From a virus: a DNA stretch of 29,398 nucleotides. The DNA is taken from positions 1 to 29,398 of the IMG/VR virus record IMGVR_UViG_3300035670_004613. The stretch is one strand, 5' to 3'. Under the pieces are notes generated by a model, which saw only the letters and a program-made list of their open reading frames with translations, did not search any database and was not told the DNA's origin. Below are positions 13,050-14,753 of the stretch, piece by piece. A program made the translations under genes and the position numbers. Each line of letters starts with the position of its first letter. The first letter of the stretch is position 1.

Positions 13050-13298
13050 ATGCACCCTGATCACGAGCCGGATGGCTCCATCATTGGCAAGGTGCTGATG
13101 GCAGTTTCGGCGCCCATCATCGTGGGTGCCACTGGCCTGTTTCTGCAGCAGCAAGCGAACTTTGCACGCCTTGACGAACGGCTGAGTCAGATGGCAGCAG
13201 ATGTGCAGGAAATCAAAAGCGATACTCGCCAGCAATGGATGTCGCTAGATTCAAGAGTGCGGCAGCTTGAAATCGGTTACCGCAAAGCTGGCTTCTGA
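13050..13298 (+). CDS. Small membrane protein, candidate holin
   Basis: This 82-residue protein has one hydrophobic segment at about residues 12-33 (GKVLMAVSAPIIVGATGLFL). It is followed by a coiled-coil-like amphipathic region rich in Q, E and R (QQQANFARLDERLSQMAADVQEIKSDTRQ). A short acidic N-terminus, one membrane helix and a cytoplasmic coiled coil recall XhlA-type phage lysis accessory proteins. It lies three genes upstream of the endolysin, with another small hydrophobic protein between, so a holin or holin-regulator role fits. There is no strong family signature and a structural role cannot be excluded. Confidence 0.6.
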   Translation: MHPDHEPDGSIIGKVLMAVSAPIIVGATGLFLQQQANFARLDERLSQMAADVQEIKSDTRQQWMSLDSRVRQLEIGYRKAGF

Positions 13299-13304
13299 AT
13301 CATC

Positions 13305-13445
13305 ATGGACTTCCTTTCTCATCCTGCTTTCTGGATTGTTGTTGCGGCTGCTTCTGAGCTGATCGCTCTGAGCCCGCTGAAGAGCAACAGCGTTGTGCAG
13401 CTTGTCTTTCAAATCCTGAACCTGCTGAAAGCAAAAAAGCGCTGA
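13305..13445 (+). CDS. Small hydrophobic protein (46 residues), lysis cluster
   Basis: ATG 13305 opens a 46-codon frame, MDFLSHPAFWIVVAAASELI..., ending LKAKKR at TGA 13443-13445. Residues about 7-25 form a membrane-length hydrophobic helix, followed by a short amphipathic helix (SVVQLVFQILNLLK) and a basic end. It begins 6 nt after the candidate holin. The last codons read GCA AAA AAG CGC TGA, a slippery heptamer placed so that a -1 shift enters the downstream open frame (see separate entries). A holin, antiholin or membrane anchor role is plausible, but I know no characterised homologue. Confidence 0.6.
   Translation: MDFLSHPAFWIVVAAASELIALSPLKSNSVVQLVFQILNLLKAKKR
13433..13439 (+). promoter_or_regulatory. 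Candidate -1 frameshift site (A AAA AAG) in the lysis cluster
   Basis: The codons of the 46-residue gene read GCA AAA AAG CGC TGA, so A AAA AAG lies in the X XXY YYZ register two codons before the stop. A -1 shift continues as GCG CTG ATT CGC into a frame open to TGA 13700-13702. That frame has no ATG near its start. A AAA AAG is among the most efficient bacterial slippery heptamers. The site may be coincidental if the downstream gene simply uses a CTG or ATT start. Confidence 0.45.
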
Positions 13446-13702
13446 TTCGCTTTGGCAAGCCGCTTTGGGAGCGGCGTTTAGAGCAAGCCATCCGGCAATG
13501 GTGGTTTGAGCTGACGCTGCCTGCAAAGCTGGATCAAGCCGAGGCGGAGTGGCACGCAACACAGCCTCCGATGACACTTGAGCCGATCATTGTCGAGCAT
13601 CCGATTGATGATGAACTGCAAACTGGCGAAAGCCGCTTATTAGGCGGCGCAATGTCCATCCATGCACCGTGGCACCGTGGCGAAGACACCAGTCAGACTT
13701 GA
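13442..13702 (+). CDS. Hypothetical protein lacking a normal start (frameshift extension or CTG/ATT start)
   Basis: An open frame encodes about 86 residues starting LIRFGKPLWERRLEQAIRQW and continuing WWFELTLPAKLDQAEAEW, TQPPMTLEPIIVEHP, ending RGEDTSQT at TGA 13702. The composition is that of a real soluble protein, but no ATG, GTG or TTG lies at its 5' end. The first usable ATG is about 40 codons in, at MTLEP. Three explanations fit: translation by -1 frameshift at 13433-13439, giving a 132-residue membrane-anchored fusion; a rare CTG start at 13442 or ATT start at 13445 overlapping the upstream stop; or loss of an ATG that relatives may keep. It overlaps the endolysin start. Function is unknown. 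Confidence 0.5.
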   Translation: MIRFGKPLWERRLEQAIRQWWFELTLPAKLDQAEAEWHATQPPMTLEPIIVEHPIDDELQTGESRLLGGAMSIHAPWHRGEDTSQT

Positions 13703-14753
13703 GGCATTGTTTCGCTACTGGCGCGGGTTGCCGCATCAGGCCGCGGCCATCGTCGAGCTTGAGCAGGAACTGCTAAAGGCGGCGCCTGATTTGCTGAATA
13801 GAGATCAGCCATGGTTCAGCACTTGGAGCCAAGACGGCAAGCAGGCTGACCTAGGCGATGCGCTCAAGCTGATTCAGCAGTTCGAGGGCTGCCATCTTGA
13901 GGCGTACAAATGCCCAGCAGGCGTATGGACAATCGGTTGGGGAACTACCCGCTACACCGATGGCCGCAAGGTAAAGCAAGGCGACAAGATCAACCGCGTC
14001 GAGGCAGACATGCTTCTGCGGCAAGAGGTTGACCGTATCGCCGAGCGGCTGCGTATCACCGTGCCGCGGTGGCAAGAGCTGCAAGACCATCAGAAGTCTG
14101 CACTCATCAGCTTTGCCTACAACCTAGGCGCCAACTTTTACGGCACTGCTGGCTTTGAGACGATCACCGCCAAACTGCGCGATGGCAAGTGGGATGAGGT
14201 GCCTGCGGCATTGCTGCTGTATCGCAACCCTGGCAGCAGCTTTGAAGCTGGTCTAAAGCGCCGCCGTGAAGCAGAAGGCAAGCTATGGAGCAAAGGCCAC
14301 CTGCGGCCAGTCGAAACGCAGCAGCAACCGGCCAAACTATCACCCAGTAGCCCGTTCAGTGCACGCATCACCCCGCACATCCGCATTGGTGAGTTTGCGC
14401 TTGACCAAGAGGCGCGCAGGTTCGACCACCAGCATCAGATCGACACCGCCGCCGAGCTGGCAGCATTCCTTGAGCGTGTGCGCGGCGCGTTCGGCGGCAA
14501 GCCCATTGTCATTACAAGCGGCTACAGGCCACCAGCAATCAATCGTTCAGTTGGTGGTGCCAGCGCGTCGGAGCACTTGTACAACGCTCCCGGTATCGGA
14601 GCTGTGGACTTTTTTGTCCATGGCGCCGATATTTACAAGGTTCAAGACTGGTGCGTAAAGAACTGGCCGTATAGCACCGGTCTAGGCGCGCCCAAGGGCT
14701 TCGTGCATCTAGGAATACGCCAAGGCAGGCCGAGACTCACTTGGCCTTATTAG
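13662..14753 (+). CDS. Two-domain endolysin: GH24 muramidase + M15 peptidase
   Basis: This protein is up to 363 residues. A GTG at 13677 (VAKTPVRLEALFRYW) is an alternative start, and neither start has a clear ribosome site. Residues about 65-205 form a GH24 lysozyme with the catalytic E-8-C-5-T pattern (E75 in FEGCHLEAYKC, C84, T90 in VWTIGWGTT), the variant that carries Cys where T4 lysozyme has Asp. Residues about 240-363 form a peptidase M15-type carboxypeptidase: VITSGYRPPAINR, the metal-site SEHLYNAPGIGAVDF and the late FVHLGIR histidine. It should cut both glycan and peptide bonds of peptidoglycan at lysis. The fusion is notable because many phages carry only one activity. No signal peptide is visible, so it needs a holin. 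Confidence 0.85.
   Translation: MHRGTVAKTPVRLEALFRYWRGLPHQAAAIVELEQELLKAAPDLLNRDQPWFSTWSQDGKQADLGDALKLIQQFEGCHLEAYKCPAGVWTIGWGTTRYTDGRKVKQGDKINRVEADMLLRQEVDRIAERLRITVPRWQELQDHQKSALISFAYNLGANFYGTAGFETITAKLRDGKWDEVPAALLLYRNPGSSFEAGLKRRREAEGKLWSKGHLRPVETQQQPAKLSPSSPFSARITPHIRIGEFALDQEARRFDHQHQIDTAAELAAFLERVRGAFGGKPIVITSGYRPPAINRSVGGASASEHLYNAPGIGAVDFFVHGADIYKVQDWCVKNWPYSTGLGAPKGFVHLGIRQGRPRLTWPY

Follow-up and report, generated by a model that had tools for sequence, protein, structure and literature searches.

A conserved slippery heptamer at the end of a holin-like cyanophage gene as a predicted site of programmed -1 ribosomal frameshifting

The window analysed here, a virus record of 29,398 bases, very probably contains a programmed -1 ribosomal frameshift site at positions 13433-13439, at the 3' end of a gene for a small holin-like membrane protein (H) in a lysis cassette; this grade applies to the frameshift alone. 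Comparison with relatives indicates that the slip site and the -1-frame segment behind it (Q) are kept and lost together, and that Q is read as a continuation of H. A programmed frameshift in the H gene is apparently undescribed. The conserved slip signal offers a testable route to two lysis proteins from one gene, of which the longer form would be about three times longer. A conserved shift in the gene next to that of the endolysin in widespread aquatic phages would mean that existing annotations lack a protein domain or start it wrongly, as in gp22 of S-CBS3, the internally started ORF of S-EIVl, and KBS-S-2A, in which Q is unannotated. If H is a holin, the ratio of two lysis proteins would be set by ribosome slippage, giving a handle on the timing of cyanophage lysis.

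The H gene ends with GCA AAA AAG CGC TGA, in which A AAA AAG stands in the register for tandem -1 slippage (Table 1). From 13358, the -1 frame runs open to its stop codon (13700-13702) and contains no ATG, GTG or TTG upstream of the ATG at 13571; it starts with GCG at 13439, reads ALIRFGKPLW... past the heptamer, and would give an H-Q fusion of 132 residues (45 + 87). On the + strand of the whole window, AAAAAAG is found at two sites only, 2598 and 13433. The original prediction had described this H ending, the slippery register, an 87-codon frame lacking ATG, GTG or TTG at its 5' end and a 132-residue fusion, all of which were confirmed on the sequence, and it had placed them in a lysis cluster, in agreement with the identification of the next ORF as an endolysin gene.

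Table 1. Features of the H-Q junction and its neighbours in the window
Feature	Position	Strand	Basis
82-aa protein, single N-terminal membrane segment, immediately 5' of H	13050..13298	+	sequence analysis
H, 46-aa holin-like membrane protein (0-frame product)	13305..13445	+	PHROGs match phrog_22542; sequence analysis
Slippery heptamer A AAA AAG, -1 register	13433..13439	+	sequence and relatives; E. coli efficiency of the motif, PMC4066793
0-frame stop TGA, one codon past the heptamer	13443..13445	+	sequence
Q, 87-codon -1-frame extension incl. stop, without own start codon	13439..13702	+	sequence and relatives
Endolysin (Phage_lysozyme + Peptidase_M15_3), start region overlapping the end of Q	13662..14753	+	domain searches

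Profile searches gave at least 435 relatives for H and at least 528 for Q, the best 80 of each being kept; a further 80 were obtained with podovirus H as the query, and Q alone as the query matched 76 viral loci. The junction table takes in only the loci with H found by tblastn, Q loci at contig ends without H being left out, and the loci carrying both H and Q (186) and those carrying H alone (23) are counted as distinct junctions after removal of identical ones. Wherever Q was present in the relatives examined, it followed H in the -1 frame. Among the total of 186 loci with H and Q, a heptamer of the X XXY YYZ type was identified in 184 (A AAA AAG in 171, C CCA AAG in nine, G GGA AAG in two and A AAA AAC in two), and imperfect motifs in two (G AAA AAG in L027 and A AAG AAG in L085). 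The heptamer was absent from 22 of the 23 H loci without Q, and the association of heptamer and Q gave a Fisher p of 2e-26 with the loci treated as independent and kinship ignored. In the single exception (L116, junction near 2620), A AAA AAG is kept but Q is gone, and a shift would add just 13 residues before the endolysin; this locus looks like a recent loss of Q. Conservation of the heptamer, on which the original prediction had made the frameshift depend, was thus borne out, some of the relatives carrying other efficient heptamers.

The heptamer was exchanged almost solely for other slippery heptamers, with several changes on the H tree. The tree, which is built from few columns and has rough support, requires two changes for C CCA AAG and one each for the two rarest heptamers, and shows several losses of the heptamer. 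A AAA AAG, C CCA AAG and G GGA AAG are the most efficient -1 motifs measured in Escherichia coli with a stimulator present (Sharma et al., PMC4066793). The same layout of H, heptamer and -1 frame was found in the isolates S-CBS1, S-CBS3, KBS-S-2A, S-EIVl, S-B28, WH11-B and 7B11-B.

At the place of the heptamer, the Lys-Lys pair is written AAA AAG in 114 of 115 relatives, as opposed to 63 of 150 such pairs from the other ORFs at these loci, and the codon before it has A as its third base in 114 of 115, though nine amino acids are encoded there; the codon choice at the heptamer is therefore beyond chance. In the background, GCA accounts for 29% of Ala codons and GGA for 12.5% of Gly codons. The Lys codon two codons upstream is free (AAA 54, AAG 49), in contrast to the fixed AAA AAG, and synonymous variation, normal across most of H, is suppressed at the heptamer. 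Immediately past the heptamer, the 0-frame codon shows no constraint (L, R, G, V, S, P, I, A or D), whereas the first -1 codon encodes Ala or Gly in 118 of 128 loci with a free third base. As the constraint in the codon right past the heptamer is that of the -1 frame and not of the 0 frame, reading should run through the heptamer. The second -1 codon is Leu in 127 of 128 (CTG 84, CTA 31, TTA 6, TTG 6); this succession of Ala/Gly and Leu with free synonymous choice places the beginning of the -1 constraint at the heptamer rather than at a start codon. Neither ATG nor GTG was found in place of the shift among the junctions compared, and an ATG replacing the CTG, an outcome that the original prediction had counted against itself, is likewise not among them. 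The dN/dS ratio was 0.061 for Q, with an excess of third-position changes, and 0.069 for H; as judged from these codon comparisons, Q is under purifying selection.

The original prediction had set against the frameshift a start at the CTG (13442) or ATT (13445). In this reading, Q would be a separate protein, made by ribosomes that terminate at the overlapping H stop and reinitiate. The CTG of the window does overlap the TGA, AAAGGA is located about 8 bases upstream of the CTG in many relatives, and phage lysis genes with starts coupled to termination are known (MS2, cited in PMC5009743). The NTG, however, is an automatic product of the 0-frame TGA, which in the -1 frame yields the Leu codon seen as CTG in the window; its first base is C or T, never A or G, and where the stop is TAG or TAA, as in 38 of 128 loci, there is hence no NTG. 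In 36 of 129 loci no NTG is present within the first ten -1 codons. Furthermore, the codon preceding the CTG is already constrained to Ala/Gly in the -1 frame, and reinitiation leaves unexplained both the fixation of A AAA AAG and its exchange for C CCA AAG or G GGA AAG. Such a start is thus disfavoured and considered very unlikely; a non-AUG or reinitiation start of Q was rejected, since the same Leu is written CTA, TTA, TTG or CTG in relatives and never ATG or GTG. Joining of the frames by transcriptional instead of ribosomal slippage would be favoured by the run of six A in most relatives, but efficient transcriptional slippage usually requires a longer run, and the C CCA AAG and G GGA AAG forms are three-base runs, yet keep the -1 arrangement unchanged, so that this explanation is highly improbable. 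Hardly any credence is given to the idea that the frame was split by faulty assembly or sequencing or by gene decay: homopolymers are error-prone, but the same split recurs in cultured isolates and at 186 distinct junctions out of many samples, and the dN/dS of Q (0.06) is not that of a decayed frame. An assembly error was rejected, the split being common to isolates and C CCA AAG and G GGA AAG versions being present.

A further proposal accepts the frameshift but sees its main purpose in translational coupling, with ribosomes being brought to the endolysin start, instead of in making an H-Q regulator. An overlap of Q with the start region of the endolysin is present in the window and in S-CBS3, and in L121, L122, L125 and S-SRP01, which are devoid of Q, H itself overlaps the endolysin start. 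On the other hand, an open frame alone would suffice for coupling, whereas Q is conserved as a protein under strong purifying selection with an end motif common to diverse loci; in podoviruses such as S-B28, moreover, the next gene is that of the terminase small subunit and not of the endolysin. As the main purpose of the shift, coupling is therefore unlikely, although it is compatible with H-Q as the best explanation, and both can hold.

In the programmed frameshift as proposed here, most ribosomes would stop at the TGA, leading to the 46-residue H, and a fraction would slip one base back on A AAA AAG, the A-site tRNA-Lys changing its pairing from AAG to AAA. The slipped ribosomes would append Q and produce the 132-residue H-Q, which would share the membrane segment of H and carry a polar C-terminal domain, probably in the cytoplasm. 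As the shifted ribosomes would pass the endolysin start, the shift might also couple endolysin translation to H. We infer that slippage in the host is frequent enough to be useful. A tRNA-Lys pattern allowing either anticodon matched 13 of the 16 genomes from the cyanobacterial genus of a related contig, and the anticodon was UUU in each of the 13 (ARAGORN confirmed five); the pattern could miss a divergent CUU tRNA, and the genus may not be that of the window phage's host. As the sole tRNA-Lys seen in the sampled genus, tRNA-Lys(UUU) was counted in favour of the frameshift, because it is able to re-pair from AAG to AAA.

With respect to stimulators, RNAalifold on the main-clade alignments gave no downstream RNA structure common to the clades, the Rfam scan of 13200-13800 gave no match, and no Shine-Dalgarno-like motif was evident by eye in the 30 bases upstream of the window heptamer. 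A stem GCCGCT/AGCGGC is possible about 20 bases 3' of the window heptamer, but is unconserved in the clade alignment. Relative to codon-resampled controls, the downstream RNA had greater stability in two clades (mean z of -2.5 for one and -3.0 for the other) and slightly greater stability in the clade of the window (-1.0), but no excess in podoviruses (+0.3).

The arrangement extends to other groups of cyanophages. In the T7-like cyanopodoviruses S-B28, WH11-B and 7B11-B, H ends with CCA AAA AAG TAA and is followed by a -1 extension unlike Q, of 53 to 63 residues (48 to 63 when metagenomic relatives are included), which ends in a GWSISLTSPW-like motif. H of S-B28 lies between the tail fibre genes and that of the terminase small subunit, which is where T7 has its holin gene 17.5. 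S-EIVl carries an unannotated H with the heptamer G GGA AAG, and its Q is annotated only from an internal start; no joined, frameshifted CDS was annotated at H-Q in the records inspected. S-CBP1, S-CBP3, S-CBP4, S-SRP01 and P60 have a relative of H with a longer 0-frame tail, without heptamer and without Q, and in S-CBP3 and S-SRP01 a lysozyme or glycoside hydrolase gene is directly 3' of it. The podovirus extension matched the cyanomyovirus family phrog_6464 with E 7e-8 over 30 columns in profile comparison and with E 7e-4 in the PHROGs search; a relation of the siphovirus Q to phrog_6464 was dropped, as profile comparison gave no significant match.

Several loci related to these proteins were noted besides. 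The cyanomyoviruses S-SSM4, S-SSM7, P-SSM4 and P-RSM1 (L334-L337) carry a stand-alone T4-like cluster 410 protein of phrog_6464, which has the end motif in common with the podovirus -1 extension and is encoded near uvsY in three of the four. An 82-kb viral contig (L076, 2989-3306) encodes a Q-like protein with its own ATG and no adjoining H gene, possibly a free-standing relative of the -1 domain. In the Microviridae genome MH572431.1 from Ciona (L248, 989-1129), an unannotated 46-codon H-like ORF (E 3e-3) without heptamer or Q could be a small lysis protein or a chance match. One metagenome-assembled genome labelled Hyphomonadaceae (L160) may be a mis-binned cyanophage, because it bears the cyanophage H-Q cassette.

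In the window, the tail fibre genes precede H and the endolysin gene follows it, and in the phages examined H either adjoins the endolysin or takes the T7 17.5 position. The protein is small, with a hydrophobic first half and a positively charged end as judged from hydropathy and charge, and two helices are predicted. It matched no Pfam family at E up to 1, and its PHROGs matches are all of unknown function; since no described holin family was matched, H is termed holin-like and not filed as a holin. It is nevertheless the best holin candidate because it adjoins lysozyme genes in several phage groups, and its gene position argues that it is rather probably a holin. The 82-residue protein just upstream is probably a neighbour in the lysis cassette that is dispensable for the frameshift. 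The rest of it after the membrane segment is coiled-coil-like, equivalents are present upstream of H in L077, L078, L243, L245 and L247, and it is possibly an accessory lysis protein or inner-membrane spanin.

Q was predicted to form one long helix followed by a poorly defined tail (pLDDT 68.5, pTM 0.30, too weak for fold searches). Three rows from named phage records were left out of the structure work. Its conserved end motif is DDELQTGESRLLGGAMSIHAPW, and the window protein gave no informative match to PHROGs, Pfam or PDB sequences. Because the KAKKR end of H precedes the fusion point, the positive-inside rule suggests that Q is cytoplasmic. The scheme that we favour as most likely is a majority of short holin with H-Q as a minority partner that tunes lysis. 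The regulatory part itself, H-Q acting as an antiholin-like or triggering subunit, is proposed tentatively, mainly from gene position. Siphoviruses, T7-like podoviruses and S-EIVl might also all use programmed -1 frameshifting with an exchangeable -1 domain to obtain from a single gene both a holin and a regulatory isoform with a long tail, a generalization that is plausible but short of probable; if it is true, the exchangeable domain is Q in siphoviruses and a different extension of 48-63 residues in podoviruses.

No report of a frameshifted holin gene was found in the open-licence literature on frameshifting with holins, endolysins, lysis genes or cyanophages, as covered by titles, abstracts and a few full texts, and the publication describing the related cyanosiphovirus S-LBS1 is silent on both holin and frameshift. 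The original prediction had called such a shift unusual beside a holin region; this stands as to the lack of precedent in that literature, but the case is not isolated, spanning siphoviruses, T7-like podoviruses and S-EIVl.

Programmed -1 frameshifts of tailed phages are best known from the tail chaperones, and the window carries one of these as well: the ORF 2253-2609 ends with GCA AAA AAA GAC TGA, with A AAA AAA at 2597-2603, and continues in the -1 frame (2253-2780) directly before the tape measure gene, in the classic arrangement. H-Q is similar to this G/GT frameshift (Xu, Hendrix and Duda 2004, cited in PMC3556154 and PMC3483164) with respect to the -1 heptamer at the end of a short ORF and the use of one start for two proteins, a short one and one extended at the C-terminus. 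It is different in that G/GT precedes the tape measure gene and serves tail assembly, whereas H is a membrane protein gene of the lysis cassette that is not positioned before the tape measure gene; the protein families are unrelated in the searches made. The transposases of the IS1 and IS3 families and dnaX have the same type of heptamer with AAG in the A site (PMC4066793), but their stimulators are defined (hairpin, pseudoknot, upstream SD), whereas no conserved one was found for H-Q, and the class of product differs. In MS2, reading-frame events likewise control a phage lysis gene (Kastelein 1982, Berkhout 1987, cited in PMC10885494 and PMC5009743), but MS2 is an RNA phage in which termination-reinitiation leads to a separate L protein, and there is no fusion as in H-Q. 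The gene for T7 holin gp17.5 is located between those for the tail fibre and the terminase small subunit, as is H of S-B28 and, similarly, of WH11-B. No sequence relation of H to gp17.5 emerged from the searches made, and T7 17.5 is not known to be frameshifted. Dual-start holins such as lambda S105/S107 and phage 21 S68/S71 resemble H/H-Q in that two isoforms are made from one holin gene at a set ratio, but alternative starts give their isoforms a difference of two or three N-terminal residues, whereas H and H-Q would differ by an 87-residue C-terminal domain through the shift. If the proposed scheme is true, -1 frameshifting is to be added to dual starts and separate antiholin genes as a means of setting the holin/antiholin ratio.
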